DNA from: an uncultured Armatimonadota bacterium
GTDB taxonomy: Bacteria; Armatimonadota; Fimbriimonadia; Fimbriimonadales; Fimbriimonadaceae
Assembly (NCBI GenBank): GCA_903833215.1
Contig: CAILEM010000077.1
Coordinates: 1 to 64,000, forward strand
Length of the DNA stretch: 64,000 nucleotides
Direction: 5' to 3'
The position numbers and the translations under genes are program-made. The notes under the pieces were generated by a model that was not told the DNA's origin, ran no database searches, and saw nothing but the letters and a program-made list of their open reading frames with translations. This document shows positions 5,752 through 45,927 of this stretch, one piece after another (positions within the stretch are counted from its first letter, which is position 1; every line of letters begins with the position of its first letter).

Positions 5752-8733
5752 CTAGTAAACGGTCAGTGTCGCTGACTTTGTCACACCATAGGTCGCCGAA
5801 ATCATCACCTTCTCTCCAGAGGTCGTCGGCGCCTTTGTTGTGACCGTAAAGCTAACGGACGTGCGGCCCGCAGGGACCGTCACGGTTGCCGGTACCGCTG
5901 CGGTCGCAGGATCGCTAGAACTCAACTTGACCGTAATTGGCGTCGCAAATACGCCCGTTAAGAACACCGTTCCCGTGGAATTGGATGCACCACCAGTGAC
6001 GATAATAGGCTTGAGCCCCATTGCAACCAGACTTGGCGCAGGGAGTGCAATGCTCCAAAGCCCCCTACCATAGGTTCCAGCATAGAGGAATCCGGTTGCT
6101 GCGTTCGCCACGAGGTTATTCACCGTCACATTCGGTAACCCGAACGGATTGGTCAAGTTCGACCACGTCGAACCCGAGTTGGTCGTCATGAACACTCCCA
6201 AATCCGTGCCGACATACCAGACGGAGGCAGGGTTACCCGGGTCTCGGACGACCGAATTGACGTTGCCCGTTGGAATGGCTGTCTTTCCGGATCCATTGAC
6301 GGCCGTCCAGACAGGAGATGCTGCCGCAGTATTCGAGCAACGATACAGATTCGCGTCGCCAACCCCGGCAAGTGCGGCAAGAACGTCCTTCGGATTGGTG
6401 GGGCTCACCGCGATGGAGACAACGGGCAAGCCGCCAGAAAAACCGTTGTCAACCTGGGTCGCCACTGCATTGTTCAGATTGTTTAAACCGGTCACGGTCC
6501 ACACCTGTCCATCGTCAGAACCGGTGTAAACGCGGGTCGCATCACTCGGACAGGTCGCGATGGTCCGCAAGTTGTTACCTTGACCTGCAAGTGCCGTTCC
6601 CGTGATATCGGCCGTCCAATTGTTCGTGGAATCCCACTGCCACAAGTGGTCGGTCCCCGCATAGAGGACGCCAGCCTTATTTCCTTTTATCGAGGTAATG
6701 ATCGGAGGCAGAAAGTTTGTCGACTCACCGTTGTATGCCGGATTTCCGGAGTCTGAAATATCCGATGTCGTTGCCCATCCATCCGTCGTTCGAAAAACGG
6801 AGAGCTTTTGGGTGGAGTTGTACGCGATGCTTGGGTTGAACGGGTCGTAACAGACGGCGGAACCGTCTCCTGCACCGGGATTGATCCACTTTGAAAGATC
6901 ACCTACTGAGGCGGGGTTCGCGTTGTCTTGCAGACCACCCATCAGCCTTGTGATATCGGTGGGGTGCGTTGCCACGAAGTACCACTGAGTGTTGTACAGC
7001 GTGAGGTTCAGTGGTGAGAACGCCCCAGCCTTTTTCGCTGGGTTATACGTCATGCGACTCACGCCACCGTCATTTCCAAAATAGACGGTATTCGCCGTTG
7101 TGGGATCAGCGAAGAACGCATGGTTATCGGTGTGGCTTAAAGCCACGTCGTTTGTCTGATACGCTTTGCTCAGGTCAATCCACGATGATCCACCGTCGTC
7201 CGACATGGCGATCGTGATCAGACCAACGTAAACACCATCTGTGGTCGCGGTGCCGTTTGTGATTTTTGAAGTTCCGATATACAGGTTGTAATCATCCTGA
7301 TCCCAAGTGTAGTTCGCTCCATCAGCGGAGTCTCCATTAGGAAAGCCCTTGATAACATCGGTCCAGGACGTGCCGCCATTCGTCGACTTCCAAATATGAT
7401 TGCCAGAATTCTGGGTGGAACTACTGTCGGGATTATTGGGATCGAGAACAAAAAGCGTTCCTGGAGAAACCTTTGAGCAGGCGACGTCAACGGAATTATG
7501 AGCCCGATTAGGAAACGGCACACTCACCTTTGACCAGGTGGAACCATCGTCAGTTGACTTATACATGTTCGCGCCGGAGGATCCTTCACCGGCTGCGAAG
7601 AAAGTGCGGACGCCACTGTTGTTTGGCAGGCTTACGGAAAGCCCGTCCCAATTGACAGTCGGGGCTGCTGCCTTCGTCCAGGTCGTACCGCCATCTGTAG
7701 ACCGATAAATACCTCCTCCGGAGCCATTTCCCCTTCCACCCGTCGCAATAATGATCTTTGAGTTCCCAGGGTCGACCATGATCCGGCTGATCGCGACCCC
7801 ATTAAATACGCTTGCGCCAACATTCGTCCACGTCGATCCTGAGTTGGTCGATTTCATCACGCCAAACGCAACGGATCTTGCTGACGGAAAGTCTCCTGTT
7901 CCAATAAAGATGGTGCTCGGCGTATTCGGGTCAATCGCGACGGAACTGGTTTGCATTGATTGCCATGAGTCACTCAGCGGGGTCCAGGTACCACCTTTGT
8001 TCGTGGATTTCCATGCACCGCCCCCTGCCGTGCAGAGGAAGACATTGTTGTTGTTCTTGGGGTCAACGGCGACCGCGTTCACACGTCCTGCGAGTGGTGG
8101 CAACCCATCGAATTGACGTCCAATAACCGGCTGCTGGTTGTGGGGGCCAACGTAACTCCACTTTGCGGTGATGGCTGCAGGGCCAGCAGCAAACGGAATC
8201 AATGTGAGGGCATCTCTGGCTTTGGCGGCCCGAACATACGGTGTTGCGTCAAAATTGCCGTCTCTGCCGACGTGATCGTGAAGCCAGTGCTGGTAAGCCC
8301 CCCAGTGCGACAAAGTCTCCGACTCGTGTCCACGCTCCTTCTCGCCTTTGCCCGGTTGCTTCGAAGCGTTATGTCTTTCGATCGCCTGCAAGTATCGAAG
8401 GTGGTCGGTGACCGATTCATCATTCGACATCGCGATGTGCTTCTGATCGCCATTGAGGACAAGGCGCAACTTGCGAGATTGCCGAAGTTTTGCCTTGACT
8501 TGCCTGTAGTTCGCGGAAGATTTGAGTTGAACCACAAAAAGCCCTGATGGGGGATCTACCGCTGTGACGATGCCTGCGTGCCCCAAAACTTGCATGATGG
8601 TAGCGCTGGACTGATCGATCGACTCAACCAGGAGCCGCTTTCCTGTTGGACTTGGTGGGCTGGCGACGGAAGTTACTGCCAACACGGAGCAACCTAACCC
8701 CAGCGCGCAAGATTTCGGTAAGAAAGCGTTCAA
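5752..8733 (-). CDS. Large secreted Asp-box (BNR/VPS10-like) beta-propeller protein with one Ig-like domain
   Basis: This is a predicted exported protein of 993 residues. The frame is open 31 codons further upstream. The TTG at 8731-8733 is preferred because GAGG lies 5 nt before it and it starts directly at a signal peptide (Lys, a hydrophobic core, then A-S). After the signal comes a segment resembling a protease prodomain (FVVQLKSSANYRQVKAKL), then many Asp-box repeats of the type S-T-N/D-G-G-x-T-W (for example KSTNKGGTWTPL and TTNSGSTWSNL), forming one or two propellers over about residues 190-890. A C-terminal Ig-like domain of about 95 residues follows (VTVPAGRTSVSFTVTT). There are no catalytic residues of a known glycosidase. 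It is probably a surface binding or structural protein. A paralogue lies at 59822-63958. Confidence 0.85.
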   Translation of the reverse strand: MNAFLPKSCALGLGCSVLAVTSVASPPSPTGKRLLVESIDQSSATIMQVLGHAGIVTAVDPPSGLFVVQLKSSANYRQVKAKLRQSRKLRLVLNGDQKHIAMSNDESVTDHLRYLQAIERHNASKQPGKGEKERGHESETLSHWGAYQHWLHDHVGRDGNFDATPYVRAAKARDALTLIPFAAGPAAITAKWSYVGPHNQQPVIGRQFDGLPPLAGRVNAVAVDPKNNNNVFLCTAGGGAWKSTNKGGTWTPLSDSWQSMQTSSVAIDPNTPSTIFIGTGDFPSARSVAFGVMKSTNSGSTWTNVGASVFNGVAISRIMVDPGNSKIIIATGGRGNGSGGGIYRSTDGGTTWTKAAAPTVNWDGLSVSLPNNSGVRTFFAAGEGSSGANMYKSTDDGSTWSKVSVPFPNRAHNSVDVACSKVSPGTLFVLDPNNPDSSSTQNSGNHIWKSTNGGTSWTDVIKGFPNGDSADGANYTWDQDDYNLYIGTSKITNGTATTDGVYVGLITIAMSDDGGSSWIDLSKAYQTNDVALSHTDNHAFFADPTTANTVYFGNDGGVSRMTYNPAKKAGAFSPLNLTLYNTQWYFVATHPTDITRLMGGLQDNANPASVGDLSKWINPGAGDGSAVCYDPFNPSIAYNSTQKLSVFRTTDGWATTSDISDSGNPAYNGESTNFLPPIITSIKGNKAGVLYAGTDHLWQWDSTNNWTADITGTALAGQGNNLRTIATCPSDATRVYTGSDDGQVWTVTGLNNLNNAVATQVDNGFSGGLPVVSIAVSPTNPKDVLAALAGVGDANLYRCSNTAAASPVWTAVNGSGKTAIPTGNVNSVVRDPGNPASVWYVGTDLGVFMTTNSGSTWSNLTNPFGLPNVTVNNLVANAATGFLYAGTYGRGLWSIALPAPSLVAMGLKPIIVTGGASNSTGTVFLTGVFATPITVKLSSSDPATAAVPATVTVPAGRTSVSFTVTTKAPTTSGEKVMISATYGVTKSATLTVY

Positions 8734-36904: not shown

Positions 36905-37000
36905 CCTACAAACGATCATTCGGTAAGGGCTCGCTTCTGCCTTAGATATTTCGCAGGAATCGTGGAACCTTCTTCGTTCGTTATGTATTGTGTTGATGTC

Positions 37001-37029
37001 GGCCCGTCGACCTAAGAGAAATACGGGCC
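37001..37029 (+). promoter_or_regulatory. 5'-leader hairpin of the KKGHMM gene
   Basis: GGCCCGT (37001-37007) and ACGGGCC (37023-37029) pair perfectly around a 15-nt loop, 11 nt before an AGGAG ribosome-binding site. It may stabilise the leader or be regulatory. Confidence 0.45.
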
Positions 37030-37053
37030 TTCTAAGTGCAGGAGAATACTGAA

Positions 37054-37353
37054 ATGAAGAAAATTTTAAGCCTAGTTGTCGTTTCCGCAATCGCCTTGTC
37101 AAGCTTCGCGTTCGCTCAGGACAAGAAGGACCACATGATGGACAAGAAGCCAGCCATGATGGGCAAAATGGAAGGCAAGGGTCATATGATGGCTAAGAAG
37201 GGCCACATGATGAGCAAGAAGGGTCACATGATGGACAAGAAGGGCCATATGATGTCCAAGAAGGGACACATGATGATGAAGAAGGGTGACAAGATGGCCG
37301 CCAAGGGCCACATGATGGAGAAGAAAGGCTCCATGATGAAGAAAGGCGAATAA
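37054..37353 (+). CDS. Secreted Lys/Met/His repeat protein (KKGHMM repeats)
   Basis: The 99-residue product has a signal peptide (MKKILSLVVVSAIALSSFAFA, cleavage before Q) and then consists almost only of the heptad KKGHMMx repeated five times in a row, with degenerate units on both sides. His and Met are ligands of copper and silver. Lys gives a very high positive charge. A related pentapeptide MxKDx repeat family of unknown role exists. ATG 37054 is chosen since AGGAG lies 9 nt before it and it opens the signal peptide. A perfect terminator follows. Metal binding in the periplasm is inferred, not shown. Confidence 0.88.
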   Translation: MKKILSLVVVSAIALSSFAFAQDKKDHMMDKKPAMMGKMEGKGHMMAKKGHMMSKKGHMMDKKGHMMSKKGHMMMKKGDKMAAKGHMMEKKGSMMKKGE

Positions 37354-37363
37354 ATCGCCTTCG

Positions 37364-37402
37364 AAAAACAGCCCGGGGCACGGTGTGCTCCGGGCTGTTT
37401 TT
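37364..37402. terminator. Bidirectional intrinsic terminator
   Basis: AAAAA-CAGCCCGG (37364-37376) and CCGGGCTG-TTTTT (37390-37402) form an A/T-flanked G+C-rich stem. It ends the KKGHMM gene on the plus strand and maf on the minus strand. Confidence 0.93.
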
Positions 37403-39325: not shown

Positions 39326-40447
39326 ATGCGAGTTCCTTTCTACGATATCAAAGCCCAGTACGACGAACTCCAAGCTCCCATGGACGCCGCCGTGCACGAA
39401 GTTATTGCCAGCGGCGAGTATTCGATGGGTCCGAATCACAATCTGATTGAGAAAGAGCTTGCCGCCCTCCACGGCGTCAAGCATGGTATCGCGCTGAACT
39501 CAGGAACCGACGCACTTCGAATTATCATGGACGCCGCCGGAATTGGTGCAGGCGATGAAGTCATCACCGCATCATTCACTTTTGTCGCCAGCGTCGAGAC
39601 GATCGTGCAGACGGGTGCTCGACCTGTCTTTGTCGACATTGACCCAGCCACGTTTTGCATCGACCCCGCCAAGATCGCCGCTGCCATCACACCGCGCACA
39701 AAAGCGATCCAACCTGTTCATCTTTTCGGTCAGCTGGCAGATGTCGCCGCGATCACTCAGATTGCCAAAGAGCATAACTTGGCCGTCATCGAGGATGCTG
39801 CCCAAGCCATCGGTAGCCACCACAACGGCACCTATGCTGGCAACTATGGCATCGGAGCAGGCTTCAGCTTCTATGTCACCAAGAACCTTGGTGCTGCAGG
39901 TGACGCCGGTTTGATCCTTACGAACGACGACGCAATTGCAGAAGCATGTCGATCCATTCGTGTGCACGGCATGGGTAAGCAACGCTACTACTACGATCAC
40001 ATCGGCTATACCTCGCGAATGGATGAAGTCCAGGCCGCCGTTCTCCGTGTCAAGATGACCAAATTCCACGAGTGGAATGAGCGCCGGGCTCAGCTAGCAG
40101 CTATCTACCTTGATGTCCTTGCTTCCTCCGAACTGACATTGCCGGTGGTTTCCCCCGGCAATAATACGACCTGGCATCAGTTCAGCATCCGCCACGGCCG
40201 ACGCGACGCTCTCCAGCAGTTCCTCAAAGAGCGAGACGTCGCATCGATGATCTACTATCCCGTCCCAATCCATTTCCATGAGCCTTACAAGCACTTTGGC
40301 GAGGGACAAGGTTCCCTACCAGAATCAGAGCGGGCCGCAAAGGAAATCCTTAACTTGCCCATTCATCCGCATCTCAGCGTCGATCAGGTGGCCTATGCGG
40401 CAAAGCTTATTGCTGAATTCTGTGCCAGCGAAACGTCTACACCTTAG
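39326..40447 (+). CDS. DegT/DnrJ/EryC1/StrS-family PLP-dependent aminotransferase
   Basis: These aminotransferases make amino sugars from keto-sugars for surface polysaccharides or glycosylated metabolites. The 373-residue product has LNSGTDALRI (58-67), the PLP-phosphate region, EDAAQAIG (156-163) and the Schiff-base K186 (FYVTKNLGA). The start MRVPFYDIKAQY is characteristic. No sugar dehydratase is adjacent, so the sugar is unknown. Its end overlaps the convergent anti-sigma gene by 11 bp. Confidence 0.92.
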   Translation: MRVPFYDIKAQYDELQAPMDAAVHEVIASGEYSMGPNHNLIEKELAALHGVKHGIALNSGTDALRIIMDAAGIGAGDEVITASFTFVASVETIVQTGARPVFVDIDPATFCIDPAKIAAAITPRTKAIQPVHLFGQLADVAAITQIAKEHNLAVIEDAAQAIGSHHNGTYAGNYGIGAGFSFYVTKNLGAAGDAGLILTNDDAIAEACRSIRVHGMGKQRYYYDHIGYTSRMDEVQAAVLRVKMTKFHEWNERRAQLAAIYLDVLASSELTLPVVSPGNNTTWHQFSIRHGRRDALQQFLKERDVASMIYYPVPIHFHEPYKHFGEGQGSLPESERAAKEILNLPIHPHLSVDQVAYAAKLIAEFCASETSTP

Positions 40448-40733
40448 GCGACTTTTCAACTTCTGTCCAGCCTGATTCGATCGCCTGCCAACGCTCTGTC
40501 GATAATCCATCGTCGGGCGCAACCGGTTGCTTCTCTGACTTCATGTCACGAAGTTGGCGTATTAATGCCGTAACTCGCTTGAGGAAGTTCCCACAGCGAG
40601 TACACCGGGCGGCGTGGTAAAGCGCATACCATCGCATTGCCGGAGGTGCCGTCTCATCTGCGGCTCGGTTGAGCATCGCCTCCATGTGCTTGCATGGTTC
40701 AAAGGAGTCGCCGGAGTCTTTGTGAAAGTTCAT
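40437..40733 (-). CDS. Small zinc-binding anti-sigma factor-like protein
   Basis: A 98-residue soluble protein with the H-x3-C-x2-C core of zinc-binding anti-sigma (ZAS) domains (HAARCTRC, about residues 41-48) and a preceding Cys/His (CKHMEAML). The remainder is a charged tail without membrane segments, so it would be a cytosolic anti-sigma rather than a membrane one. Its start overlaps the sigma-factor stop by 4 nt. Assignment rests on motif plus operon position. Confidence 0.75.
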   Translation of the reverse strand: MNFHKDSGDSFEPCKHMEAMLNRAADETAPPAMRWYALYHAARCTRCGNFLKRVTALIRQLRDMKSEKQPVAPDDGLSTERWQAIESGWTEVEKSPKV

Positions 40734-41314
40734 GATTTCATCTCAGTCGCCTGTAGATCTCGCATGACGGTAAGCATCTGCATACGTGCGCGGGCTAAGC
40801 GGGATCGGACGGTCCCGATCGGGATATCTAGAATCTGGGCTACCTCTGCGTAGGGGAGTTCTTCAACGTCGGCTAATAGAACACATATGCGCTGAGACTC
40901 AGGAAGGCTCAACAGGGCCGTCTCTAAAGGCTCACTGAACGTTCCCTCAAGAATCCATTGATCGGGAGAGGGGATCTTGCTGTTCCAGTTCGATTGCGCA
41001 GCATCGTTGTTCGGGATCATGTCGCCATCCAGTCCGGAATCTGACCGGTTCTGCCTTTTCGCGTAGAGGAACGAGTTTGTGAGGATTCGCGTGAGCCAGG
41101 CTCCAGGATGACGACCGTCAAATCGATCTTCGACAAACGCCCTGTAGGCGGATATCATGGTGTCTTGGACGATATCTTGGGCTAGGTCGCGATCAGTACC
41201 GCACAGTCGTCGGGCGGTCCTAAGGAGCGCACCTTCATACTGCTTCGCAATAGCTGCAAACATGGACCGCTTTGAATTCGACTGTCCAGTTTCTGTCATA
41301 TCCGCACCACTCAT
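40730..41314 (-). CDS. ECF-family RNA polymerase sigma factor
   Basis: The second ECF sigma factor of the window, 194 residues. Region 2 is at about 20-90 (LLRTARRLCGTDRDLAQDIVQDTMISAYRA, with TRILTNSFLYAKR) and region 4 at about 135-185 (LSLPESQRICVLLADVEELPYAEVAQIL, then IGTVRSRLARAR). It forms an operon with the zinc-finger anti-sigma protein (4-nt overlap). It is only distantly similar to the other ECF sigma at 13044, so the two probably serve different regulons. Confidence 0.93.
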   Translation of the reverse strand: MSGADMTETGQSNSKRSMFAAIAKQYEGALLRTARRLCGTDRDLAQDIVQDTMISAYRAFVEDRFDGRHPGAWLTRILTNSFLYAKRQNRSDSGLDGDMIPNNDAAQSNWNSKIPSPDQWILEGTFSEPLETALLSLPESQRICVLLADVEELPYAEVAQILDIPIGTVRSRLARARMQMLTVMRDLQATEMKS

Positions 41315-41406
41315 CGCCCTTCACTCCGCACTACCGAGGCGGACAACCGATGAATACGCGAAGGTTGCCTAAAGTTCCGTCCTTTGAACAGTCTTCCCAG
41401 TTTTTG

Positions 41407-42159
41407 CTAGAGAAGCGTAGCCTGGGAAGGATCGGGCTCCGGATGATCGATATCCTCAAGGGCCTCGAATAGCTCATTGTGGGCTCCTGCGGCGTGCTCG
41501 CCCTCAAGCCGCATTGCTTCATAGAGCACTGCCCCAAGGACTGCGCCAACGCATGGACCAACCAGGTAGATGAAATAATTCGCCAGCGCAGGACCACCTG
41601 CGAAGAGAGCCGGACCAAAAGACCTTGCTGGGTTCATGGATCCACCGGTAATGGGACCTCCCACCAGCACCCCAACGACCACGGTCAGCCCAATTGCCAA
41701 AGCGGGCACGGCGCTGGAAACGCGCTTGTCCGTAGCTACCGAGATGATCACCATCATCAGCAGCGTAGTGATCAAGATTTCAGTGCCAATGTTGCGCAGG
41801 AAGAGGGCTGGATCGGAAGGCACATGAGCCCCACCTGGTCCCATCAACAGCCACGAAGCTCCAGCAGCAAGAACGGCCCCGGCGAATTGAGCAAACCAGT
41901 ACGGAGCCGCATATTTCCAAGGAAAGCGCTTTGCAACCGCAAAGCCCAAGGTCACCGCCGGATTAAAGTGGGCTGCAGATATTGGACCAAGTGCGTAAAT
42001 CATGGCCAGCACGACAAGCCCTGACACGAGTGCGGCGGACAGCAGACTGCCGTCGCCACCCGAACGGTGAGCCGTCGCCGAAAGGGCTGCAGGCGCAAAA
42101 ACGATAAAGAACGTGCCCACAAATTCGGCAACGTATCGCTTGGTCATTCGATCTTTCAT
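41407..42159 (-). CDS. Aquaporin/glycerol-facilitator (MIP) family channel
   Basis: The 250-residue product has six membrane helices and both NPA boxes (HFNPAVT at about 64-70; SMNPARS at 175-181), so it is a complete MIP channel. The acidic tail (ELFEALEDIDHPEPDPS) is unusual. It lies downstream of arsM and arsR on the same strand; aquaporin-like AqpS channels are known in arsenic operons, where they pass As(III) or methylarsenicals. A hairpin and 165 bp separate it from arsM, so it may have its own promoter (TATACT, 42201-42206). The arsenic role is inferred from context. Confidence 0.9.
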   Translation of the reverse strand: MKDRMTKRYVAEFVGTFFIVFAPAALSATAHRSGGDGSLLSAALVSGLVVLAMIYALGPISAAHFNPAVTLGFAVAKRFPWKYAAPYWFAQFAGAVLAAGASWLLMGPGGAHVPSDPALFLRNIGTEILITTLLMMVIISVATDKRVSSAVPALAIGLTVVVGVLVGGPITGGSMNPARSFGPALFAGGPALANYFIYLVGPCVGAVLGAVLYEAMRLEGEHAAGAHNELFEALEDIDHPEPDPSQATLL

Positions 42160-42200
42160 AGGGGAGGGCTAGGCAATCTGAAATTCAGGTTGCTGGCCAA

Positions 42201-42206
42201 GTATAA
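42201..42206 (-). promoter_or_regulatory. Candidate -10 element for the aquaporin gene
   Basis: TATACT on the minus strand lies 41 bp before the aquaporin ATG, in a gap that already contains a hairpin downstream of arsM. No convincing -35 box. Confidence 0.35.
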
Positions 42207-42265
42207 GAGACCAGATTTGCTCAGAAGTTAAGGAGCTTAATAACTGCCAAACATTTGCTCAGATT

Positions 42266-42298
42266 GCACCATGCCATCCATCTCGAATGGCATGGTGC
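42266..42298 (-). terminator. Perfect hairpin downstream of arsM
   Basis: GCACCATGCCAT (42266-42277) and ATGGCATGGTGC (42287-42298) pair over 12 bp around a 9-nt loop, 27 bp after arsM. No U-run, so it may be a factor-assisted terminator or RNA stabiliser separating arsM from the aquaporin. Confidence 0.55.
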
Positions 42299-42324
42299 GG
42301 GACTACCGTTAGAATTCCCGCGTG

Positions 42325-43182
42325 TTAAGCGGCAGGCTTCGTTCCTCGTATGAATGCACCCATGACTCGTCCGTCCAGAGCGGTGCGCTCCGTTTCGGAT
42401 AATCGTGCTATCGCCTCCGTGGAACAGCATGATTGTTCAAGATCTGAGAACAGGTATCGGCGTGTCGGCTCGATCGAAACATTCTCAAATCCGACCGACT
42501 CGAGTCTGGAGATGTAGTCCGTCCGCTCCAATGCCCCAGCAACGCATCCTACATACGCCTCCATATCTTTACGAACGACATCAGGAATTTCGCCGTCGAT
42601 CACAACATCTGAGACAGCAAATCGGCCACCCGGTTTGAGTACACGAATCGCTTCGGCGAGTACGAGGTCTTTATCCCCCGAGAGGTTGATCACGCAGTTG
42701 CTGATGATCACATCGACAGACGCATCGGGCAAAGGAATCTCCTCAATGTGTCCCTTTAGGAACTTTACGTTCTCAGCACCCGCTTCAAGCCGGTTCTTCT
42801 CTGCCAAGGCGAGCATTTCGTCGGTCATGTCAAGGCCGTAGGCAAATCCAGTTGGGCCAACTCTTCGTGCAGAGAGGAGCACGTCGATGCCACCTCCGCT
42901 GCCAAGATCCAAAACAGTCTCTCCTTCCTTTAGAGCGGCAAGGGCGGTCGGATTCCCACAGCCGAGCGAAGCGAGCAAAGCCGCCTCGGGAATTTGACTT
43001 GCATCGGTATTCGAGTAGAGGTCTCCGCTGATCGGATCCGAATCGGAACAGCACGAAGAACCTTGACCGTTGCAGCACGATGCCTGACCATTGCCATTTA
43101 GCACCGTAAGAGCAGCCGCGCCGTATCGGGCCTTTACGAACTCTCGCACGTCTTCGCGATTTGTTAATTGACTAGAACTCAT
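42325..43182 (-). CDS. arsM: Arsenite S-adenosylmethionine methyltransferase
   Basis: ArsM methylates As(III) stepwise to volatile or exportable methylarsenicals. The 285-residue product has the SAM-binding [11 protein letters not shown] (90-100), and the conserved cysteines C163 (SNCVINLS) and C213 (GCVAGAL) that bind arsenic; C75 may be the third. The N-terminus has two extra CC pairs (36-37, 44-45) and the C-terminal part another (252-253), so more thiols than minimal ArsM. ATG 43182 overlaps the arsR stop (ATGA) and is preferred over the frame opening further upstream. Confidence 0.93.
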
Positions 43183-43535
43183 TGTTTCATCTCCGTTTCT
43201 TCGCCACAGCAACCTCCGACGTTGCTAAAGTAGCTTCTGATCTGCGCCAGCGTTGCTTGGTTAACGCCACAAACCATGTTCTTGCCACGGCGCTCCATCG
43301 TGATGAGCTCCGCGTTTCGAAGCTCCTTCAAGTGGAAGCTGAGCGATGAGCTGATTTTTTCGGTCCCAATGACCGAGCAGCACACTTCGCCCACTGTCGG
43401 ACCGAGAACGGGTCGCACTTCCCCTTCATCACCCACGGCCACGGGGCAACAACAGGAGGCTAGGAACTCAAACACCCTGAGGCGCGTCGGGTCGCCCAAG
43501 GCTTTGAAGATAACAGATCGATCTTTGTGATCCAC
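43179..43535 (-). CDS. arsR: ArsR/SmtB-family transcriptional repressor
   Basis: ArsR represses its operon until As(III) binds. The 118-residue winged-helix protein has the DNA-recognition segment SSSLSFHLKELRNAELITMERRGK (about 62-85) and many cysteines: CCC at 28-30, CC at 52-53 next to the recognition helix, C89 and CC at 109-110. This is not the classical ELCVCDL site, but ArsR proteins with alternative Cys triads are known. GTG 43535 starts it, with a TATGAT 6 nt upstream and no Shine-Dalgarno, hence probably leaderless. It is cotranscribed with arsM. Confidence 0.92.
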   Translation of the reverse strand: MDHKDRSVIFKALGDPTRLRVFEFLASCCCPVAVGDEGEVRPVLGPTVGEVCCSVIGTEKISSSLSFHLKELRNAELITMERRGKNMVCGVNQATLAQIRSYFSNVGGCCGEETEMKQ

Positions 43536-43624: not shown

Positions 43625-44455
43625 TTACAGCCCTGCGTACCAATCGTATCCCTGTTCAGCCCAGTAGTCGGTCGGGCGTTGATCGGTATAGGTGATCGAT
43701 CCTATCCGCTTCAGGTTCTTTACTCCGTACTTCACCGGAATTGCTAATCGCAACGGCGCACCATGGTCCAAGCTGAGCGGTTCCCCATTCATCTCATAGC
43801 AAAGCAGTGTCTGGGGATGCAGGGCGCTCGCCATGTCGAGCCCGACGTAGTAGGCCTCGTTTGGCGTCATCATCGACACGTAGCGAACCAATTCCTCGGG
43901 CTTGTTGTTCACGTCGGGTGGGTTGCTCGTTCTAGATGAAGGTGGATACTTTGCGGCGAAGTCTGCAAAGCGAACTCCCTTCCATTCCACCTTCATGCTC
44001 CATCCTTCGATGCAGAACATCTCGGTAATTTGAGTTGTCACTGGCAGCTTCTTGATATCTTCGAGGGTCAGAACGGTGGGTTCGTCTTTTCCAAAAACGT
44101 TATTCACCGTCAAGGTCCATTCGCTGGGATCAAAGTTTTCTTCTTCTAGCCCTACATCGCCGTTCTGCCTCAGTTCAGTCAGGTCGGCCTTCAAGTAGGT
44201 CGGGGACAGTTGGCCTTTTCGGTACAGGTCCATACCTACGCCCTGGTTCGCTTCGAGTGCCCTTCGAAATGGCCATGGTGTTCCCCAGTCTTCCTGGCGA
44301 GATGCCAGCCAATGGACCCCACTATAGGCTCCGAGAGCGGCGATACCTGCCCAAAGAAAACTGCGTCGCGACATGCGGCCCATTGCCGCCTTGACCTCAC
44401 TGTTGTGCTCAGTGACGCTTCCCATTTGGGGTTGTTCTAAGTTCAAATCACTCAC
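43625..44455 (-). CDS. Tat-exported molybdopterin-dependent oxidoreductase (MsrP/sulfite-oxidase-like)
   Basis: A 276-residue protein of the sulfite oxidase/YedY fold. A Tat signal SRRSFLWAG (29-37) with a hydrophobic stretch follows a polar leader. The molybdenum-ligand Cys is C148 (TEMFCIEGWSMKVEWKG), and the typical SLDHGAPLRLAIPVKYGVKNLKRI (about 229-252) is present. MsrP reduces methionine sulfoxide; related enzymes oxidise sulfite. The partner here is a cytochrome b of another type than MsrQ, so the substrate cannot be fixed. Its start overlaps the cytochrome b gene by 4 nt. Confidence 0.88.
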   Translation of the reverse strand: MSDLNLEQPQMGSVTEHNSEVKAAMGRMSRRSFLWAGIAALGAYSGVHWLASRQEDWGTPWPFRRALEANQGVGMDLYRKGQLSPTYLKADLTELRQNGDVGLEEENFDPSEWTLTVNNVFGKDEPTVLTLEDIKKLPVTTQITEMFCIEGWSMKVEWKGVRFADFAAKYPPSSRTSNPPDVNNKPEELVRYVSMMTPNEAYYVGLDMASALHPQTLLCYEMNGEPLSLDHGAPLRLAIPVKYGVKNLKRIGSITYTDQRPTDYWAEQGYDWYAGL

Positions 44456-45177
44456 TCGGTCACCTCGTCAGCAACGATCTCGTACCCCGTCACCATGGCG
44501 CGGAAGTTGTTCCACCCGGCACGAATCACCTGGGCGACATGGACGAAGAAGAAGCCGATGAAGCCCATCATCAGCCAAAAATGCAGAAACCTAGCGACGG
44601 TGTATCCACCGAGAAGTTGGGTAAATAAGCTTGCTTGCACGGGCTTGTAGATGGCTATCCCCGTAACCAAGGAGCCTAATCCCATCAAGATCACACCCGT
44701 GTAGGCGATCTTTTGAGCACCGTTAAATTTGCCCTGGGATGGGGCCTCTTTGCGAAGGTGAAGGTCATGAAGCACGACGTGAATGGCTTCACGAAGCGTA
44801 TTGCGCGAAGGCAGTATGTGCCTCCACTCCCCCGAAATCGCGGTGTAGAGCACGTAGAGAATGCCATTGATGGTGAAGAACCACATCAGAAGGAAATGCC
44901 ATGACATTCCTTCCGCGAGCCGAGCAGAGAGTTCGTACACGCCCGGTTTCGGCGGCTTCTCTTGATATCCCGGATGATAGAACCAATCAGGGAAGAGCGC
45001 GATCGGTCCGAGATGCATCACGCCATTCGCCCAATAGATCAAGAGTCCGCTCCAGATCATGATGGCGAGCACCGGGAAGTTAACCCAGTGAAACCATCGG
45101 ATGGCCAGAGGGTGTTTCTCCTCAATTCGAAGTGGTTTGTCGTCCATGCGTGCCTTGTTCATCGGTCTTTCGATCAT
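44452..45177 (-). CDS. Cytochrome b561-like (Ni/Fe-hydrogenase-type) membrane subunit
   Basis: The product of up to 241 residues has four or five membrane helices with His residues placed for two b hemes: HPLAIRWFHWVNF (22-34), SWHFLLMWFF, and the late FLHFWLMMGFIGFFFVHVAQV. This is the quinol-exchanging diheme cytochrome b family (PF01292-like). It would carry electrons between the quinone pool and the periplasmic molybdo-enzyme of the next gene. It starts 5 bp after the thioredoxin-like gene; three ATGs near the start are possible. Confidence 0.85.
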   Translation of the reverse strand: MIERPMNKARMDDKPLRIEEKHPLAIRWFHWVNFPVLAIMIWSGLLIYWANGVMHLGPIALFPDWFYHPGYQEKPPKPGVYELSARLAEGMSWHFLLMWFFTINGILYVLYTAISGEWRHILPSRNTLREAIHVVLHDLHLRKEAPSQGKFNGAQKIAYTGVILMGLGSLVTGIAIYKPVQASLFTQLLGGYTVARFLHFWLMMGFIGFFFVHVAQVIRAGWNNFRAMVTGYEIVADEVTE

Positions 45178-45182
45178 CCAGT

Positions 45183-45722
45183 CTAGCCCGGTTCCCTTAA
45201 CAGCTCCTGAACGGTACGTGAAACCTGCTGCACACCATCGGCCCCCTGGTATCCAAGTTCACCAAGCCACGTGTATCGAACTCTGCCCTTCTTGTCGATG
45301 ACGAATACCGTTGGCCAAACTTGGAGCCCATAGTGGTTCCAGTTAGCACCGTCATTATCGACGAGCACGGGATACTCCACGCCGAGTTTGGGAAGTGCCC
45401 TCTGCACATTTTTGATATTCCGTTCTTCTGGTAATTCTGGAGTGTGAACGCCGATCACTTGGACCAGGTTCGAAGGATACTGCTTGGCCCACGCCGCATA
45501 GCTCGGCAGATTGTGTTTGCAGTTAATGCACTCAAACGTCCAGAAATGTAGGATCGTCACCCGGCCTTTGAAGTTCTGTATACGGTCGACATCGGTTGGC
45601 TTTACATTCAGCCAACTCTGCCCCACCAACTTCGGTGCTCGGTAGTGCGTGTCTCTTGAAGCCGATGCCGCAATCGCCGCCAACATCAACACCCCCGCCA
45701 ATAGTCCTTTGTGAATTCTCAT
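45183..45722 (-). CDS. Exported thioredoxin-like protein (TlpA/DipZ type)
   Basis: A 179-residue periplasmic protein with a signal peptide (MRIHKGLLAGVLMLAAIAASA) and a thioredoxin fold with active-site CINC (65-68) in HFWTFECINCKHNLPS, the pattern of the C-terminal domain of DipZ/CcdA-like proteins. It may supply reducing power or protect thiols of the following enzymes. A GAAAGGA ribosome-binding site lies about 12 nt before the ATG. First gene of the three-gene redox operon. Confidence 0.87.
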   Translation of the reverse strand: MRIHKGLLAGVLMLAAIAASASRDTHYRAPKLVGQSWLNVKPTDVDRIQNFKGRVTILHFWTFECINCKHNLPSYAAWAKQYPSNLVQVIGVHTPELPEERNIKNVQRALPKLGVEYPVLVDNDGANWNHYGLQVWPTVFVIDKKGRVRYTWLGELGYQGADGVQQVSRTVQELLREPG

Positions 45723-45927
45723 CTGTTCTCTGTCCTTTCAAATCATCGGTTACTGACTGCAGAGAATGCAGAGCCGAGAGAATTGGTTCCATGACTTTTC
45801 TTCCTGGATCCTGAGCATGCCATGTGCAGGAAGGATTACCACGACCGTCTCCGGTTTGAGACGTGCCCCGAAGCACTCAAGGTTTCAACCTGCGCGGTAG
45901 TATGGTTTTGCTTTTCGAGGTCAAAGG

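Follow-up and report, generated by a model that had tools for sequence, protein, structure and literature searches.

The window, the whole 64,000-nucleotide stretch analysed here, carries a small gene for an exported, Lys- and Met-rich (KM) repeat protein that probably serves as a sacrificial, rechargeable methionine reservoir, or antioxidant, of the cell envelope, in an ECF-controlled redox cycle with an MsrP-like enzyme. The claim is read from sequence and centers on a promoter element shared by the KM gene, an ECF sigma factor gene and an msrP-like operon, which indicates Met as the functional residue, a role that the first-pass annotation did not consider. The features concerned are the following.

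36964..36989, + strand: ECF-type promoter element GGAAC-N16-GTATT of the KM gene, an exact match, conserved before five orthologues.
37002..37029, + strand: leader hairpin close to where the transcript is predicted to start, moderate (−12.5 kcal/mol, z −2.8).
37054..37353, + strand: KM-rich secreted repeat protein of 99 aa (signal 1–21, mature part 78 aa), with syntenic orthologues.
37177..37338, + strand: 21-nt repeat array encoding the KKGHMMx heptads (TRF).
37364..37402, + strand: strong hairpin terminator between convergent genes (−32.3 kcal/mol, z −7.6).
40437..40733, − strand: predicted anti-sigma factor, ZAS type, from a weak anti-sigma model match and an alignment of four orthologues.
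40730..41314, − strand: ECF sigma factor (PF04542/PF08281; TIGR02937 over cut-off).
41353..41378, − strand: GGAAC-N16-GTATT-type element before the sigma gene (pattern match).
43625..44455, − strand: MsrP-like molybdopterin oxidoreductase with Tat motif SRRSF (PF00174; NF003767 best but below cut-off; 1xdq/1xdy nearest).
44452..45177, − strand: cytochrome b561-type membrane subunit (PF01292).
45183..45722, − strand: TlpA/ResA-like exported thioredoxin-fold protein with a CINC motif, leading the operon.
45765..45790, − strand: GGAAC-N16-GTATT-type element before the tlpA-cytb-msrP operon (pattern match).

The KM gene is present in one copy in the 6.2 Mb genome (G000, contig C77), and a plasmid search found it on none. 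The preferred start of its 99-residue frame, which ends with the stop at 37353, is the ATG at 37054, preceded by AGGAGAA; 37036 is an in-frame GTG. A Sec-type signal peptide, called by eye, ends in AFA before Q, and the mature 78 residues consist of 28% Lys, 27% Met, 14% Gly and 9% His, with neither Cys nor aromatic residues, in agreement with the secretion, mature length and composition described in the first-pass annotation. The five consecutive KKGHMMx heptads of that description are reached at residues 41–75 when a leading GKGHMMA is counted, only the following four being exact, and degenerate units flank the block on both sides. DNA repeats of about 21 nt do underlie the heptads, as a TRF array and a second stretch at 37119–37166. 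Within the GHMM units the Gly and His codons show synonymous differences only, and amino acids change at positions 1 and 7 alone, which argues for maintenance of the repeat at the protein level and not for mere fresh copying of DNA. The AlphaFold model of the mature protein shows no confident fold (mean pLDDT 56), and a Pfam search returned no meaningful match.

The earlier view of a well-organized gene with its own signals holds for the ribosome-binding site and for the terminator, a hairpin of 18 pairs with a loop of 3. The leader hairpin attributed to the gene is present, but its shape is not conserved, the leaders of the orthologues folding differently, and the leader as a whole folds no better than shuffles (z −0.8). 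A generic scan for sigma-70 promoters and terminators found no match at the gene, the promoter because it is of another type and the terminator because its T run is counted into the stem, outside the scan rule.

Relatives, gathered by pyrB, are Armatimonadota/Fimbriimonadaceae genomes. Five congeneric species (G004, G007, G012, G017 and G019) have an orthologue of the KM gene and together with G000 make six at one locus, between the pyrB-pyrC-lipoprotein genes and a convergent maf. The gene also adjoins maf in G028, of another genus, while in G032 it lies on a small contig where linkage to maf is not visible; in other relatives the lipoprotein-maf gap is only about 50–70 bp. The first-pass annotation had named absence from close relatives as counting against its reading; the gene is missing from most relatives outside these species, in a pattern that tracks the MsrP-like enzyme. 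What is kept among the orthologues is the signal peptide and an AQDKK-like start of the mature protein. The repeats are not kept: the unit is KKGHMMx in G000, KKGAMM/KKGSMM, lacking His, in G004, KGHMMM in G007 and KKSTM in G012, and repeat length and number differ greatly between species, in support of fast-changing repeats. Across the six genus orthologues Met makes up 14–33% and Lys 26–37% of the protein, whereas His ranges from 0% in G004 to 4–14% in the others; thus Met and Lys, not His, are conserved. A 332-aa low-complexity frame in G035 was rejected as a family member, as it was lost with a profile.

GGAAC is the usual −35 type of ECF promoters. Comparison of upstream regions placed GGAAC-N16-KYATT before five of the six genus KM orthologues, and pattern scans did not find the element before the KM gene of G007 or G028. 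Genome-wide, the pattern matched 51 times in G000 as against 45 for a reversed control, so most matches are due to chance. On inspection of all 51, only six lay outside stop-to-stop frames of 120–150 codons or more, and exactly three of these, before the KM gene, the sigma gene and the tlpA operon, sit 38–64 nt ahead of a gene start with a ribosome-binding-like site. The match at 5948–5973 was rejected as a promoter because it lies inside an ORF. As an independent test, a matrix was built from the KM-gene sites of other species; with it, the sigma or msrP sites rank 1–4 over entire loci in G000, G004, G012, G016, G017 and G019, and no such site is among the top ranks in the G007 locus. In addition, of 12 regions ahead of sigma genes or msrP operons, 8 carry the element at spacing 16; every other spacing between 8 and 29 gave one match at most, and none of 1799 letter-permuted motifs gave more than two. 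These comparisons strongly support a promoter element common to the KM, sigma and msrP units. Another of the few intergenic matches, in the middle of locus L114, is followed after about 120 nt by what may be a small secreted ORF and is a possible fourth target.

The element precedes the sigma gene itself in three species, which makes the sigma factor its natural candidate, and we infer that this ECF factor recognizes GGAAC-N16-GTATT. Orthologues of it (64–71%) were found only in G004, G012 and G019, so G016, G017 and G028, which have the element, would need another or a diverged sigma. The predicted anti-sigma gene encodes Cys14, His16, His40, Cys44 and Cys47, invariant in four orthologues, and His40, Cys44 and Cys47 form HxxxCxxC. 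This is the motif of zinc anti-sigma (ZAS) factors, several of which sense thiol oxidation.

The enzyme of the operon has a Tat signal, the PF00174 domain and a C(V/I)E(A/G)WS-like motif with the Mo-ligand Cys. Its best NCBIfam model is NF003767 (MsrP), at 97.8 bits under the cut-off of 207. The nearest solved structure is E. coli YedY/MsrP (1xdq, E 9.5e-18), ahead of sulfite oxidases, and 1xdy/1xdq occupy ranks 1–8 for the predicted fold. SRRSF and residues Cys148, Glu150, Gly151 and Trp152 are invariant in eight sequences, and the enzyme was also aligned to 1xdq. An MsrQ partner (PF01794) was not found in the operon, and the genome holds only a sub-cut-off match. The enzyme could act on a substrate other than Met sulfoxide. 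A second PF00174 protein of G000 (L107, contig C10, about 6623–7345), with 26% identity to the MsrP-like one, is probably a sulfite-oxidase-type paralogue. In G004 and G019 the msrP and sigma genes are adjacent; in the window they are separated by genes for an aquaporin, the arsenite methyltransferase ArsM and an ArsR-like regulator (41407–43535, − strand), apparently an arsenic cassette inserted into the regulon cluster.

The KM gene and PF00174 also co-occur. PF00174 is found in 14 of 61 relatives, among them every one of the eight genomes in which a KM gene is convincing (uncorrected p 1e-6); within the genus, it is present in 6/6 genomes with the KM gene versus 1/14 without (p 2e-4). These counts represent only about three independent lineages, since in a pyrC tree six of the KM-bearing genomes form a single clade, beside G028 and G032 (the G027 and G031 rows, with extremely long branches and probably in the wrong frame, were ignored), and genome size is a confounder of the association. 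G016 has a cytb-msrP unit with the exact promoter element (L105, 661–686) and no detectable repeat gene, which has been either lost or become too diverged.

From the shared promoter and the gene contents we infer the following cycle. An oxidant in the envelope, such as a hypochlorite-like or other reactive species, would detach the zinc-type anti-sigma factor from the ECF sigma factor, which, once free, would transcribe its own gene, the tlpA-cytb-msrP operon and the KM repeat gene. The exported KM polypeptide, about one-quarter Met, very basic and largely unfolded, would take up the oxidant as Met sulfoxide, which the Tat-exported MsrP-like enzyme, with electrons from the b-type cytochrome, would reduce back to Met. 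The Lys-rich background would keep the Met residues exposed and may also anchor the protein on anionic envelope surfaces.

The first-pass annotation proposed instead that His/Met pairs bind copper or silver. In this reading the KM protein would be a metal sponge similar to SilE or PcoE, its Met/His repeats binding periplasmic Cu(I), Cu(II) or Ag(I). SilE itself is disordered and soaks up Ag in the periplasm through Met and His (PMC5008109), and the KM protein resembles it in being exported, Met- and His-rich and disordered, with no confident fold. Copper stress in E. coli also involves MsrP and periplasmic Met oxidation (PMC9302797), so co-regulation with MsrP would be compatible with a metal role. 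However, His is not conserved in the family, the SilE-type spacings HxxM and MxxH are nearly missing from the window protein (1 and 0, respectively), and no copper or silver gene, sil and cop included, was seen among the neighbors inspected. These findings weaken the proposal, and we consider it unlikely; as the promoter is common with a stress sigma and an MsrP-like enzyme, the KM protein is most likely an antioxidant rather than a Cu/Ag binder. The other suggestion of the first-pass annotation, that the high Lys charge binds polyanions, is possible, each of the six genus orthologues having a net charge between +13 and +19. Here the KM protein would be a basic envelope protein that binds LPS, other anionic polymers or polyphosphate, or has a stress role like that of the acid-shock protein Asr, with its Met incidental. 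The family does share with Asr a small, exported, basic repeat protein with a similar signal peptide, and five of the six orthologues show weak similarity to the Asr model NF033636 (best 6.9e-5); the scores, 14–24 bits with a best of 23.6, are far under the 50-bit cut-off. KM proteins also differ from Asr in being Met-rich, Met is maintained at 14–33%, and a purely ionic role would leave the promoter shared with the msrP operon unexplained. As the main function it is improbable, although an Asr-like or polyanion role may coexist with the Met cycle. Finally, the fast turnover of the repeats between species and the lack of the gene in many relatives would fit a passive product of repeat expansion, of little function and kept by chance; the conservation of its site, signal peptide and promoter element, together with purely synonymous change at the conserved repeat positions, makes this very improbable.

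A Met reservoir of this kind has counterparts in Proteobacteria, and in our reading the KM protein would work, by analogy, like MrpX and BcrX. In Azospira suillum, the MrpX/SigF-NrsF/YedYZ system is presented as a periplasmic methionine-cycling mechanism against hypochlorite with YedYZ as a putative methionine sulfoxide reductase (PMC4623255). The window resembles it in combining an ECF sigma and anti-sigma pair, a periplasmic Met-rich peptide and an MsrP/YedY-type enzyme, and differs in its small ZAS-like anti-sigma, a b561 cytochrome in place of YedZ/MsrQ, an additional TlpA, Lys/His repeat units, a peptide gene with a separate, constant position next to maf, and its phylum, Armatimonadota. 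In Brucella melitensis, where HOCl induction and resistance were shown, BcrX is a Met-rich MXKDX repeat protein of the BcrX/BcrS-AbcS/BcrQP system, whose ECF sigma also controls the MsrQP homologues (PMC8315932). The window likewise has a Met-rich repeat protein under putative ECF control common to an MsrP-type enzyme; in contrast, the BcrS promoter sites contain GTAAC and CGAA, the Brucella anti-sigma has transmembrane helices and the linkage there is operonic. The six genus orthologues have the MXKDX-type traits of an export signal (by eye) and a Met-rich, low-complexity mature part (14–33% Met). The KM protein of the window (P0001) did not match TIGR02953 (MXKDX, cut-off 41 bits), and the orthologues of G012, G019 and G004 gave sub-cut-off scores of 30.9, 27.7 and 26.4 bits (2e-7 to 5e-6); low-complexity sequence of this sort cannot prove homology with MrpX or MXKDX proteins.

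If the Met-reservoir reading is true, the pairing of a sacrificial Met-rich peptide with a Mo-dependent reductase under an ECF sigma reaches beyond Proteobacteria, perhaps by convergence, and a function is provided for a group of low-complexity secreted proteins that mostly stay annotated as hypothetical. More tentatively, and as close to an even call, the window may represent an envelope Met redox buffer of Armatimonadota assembled from non-proteobacterial parts (a zinc-thiol anti-sigma sensor, a b561-fed MsrP relative, a TlpA helper and a Lys/Met(/His) peptide with repeat turnover and kept Met), possibly arisen independently of MrpX. The candidate regulon is small, with three promoters, and directly testable, and shared promoters can be used to assign a function that sequence similarity does not reveal. 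A separate exported, Asr-like protein, rich in Lys, His and Thr, is encoded in G040 (L154, from 1468), of another family of the order; having almost no Met, it was rejected as a member of the KM family.
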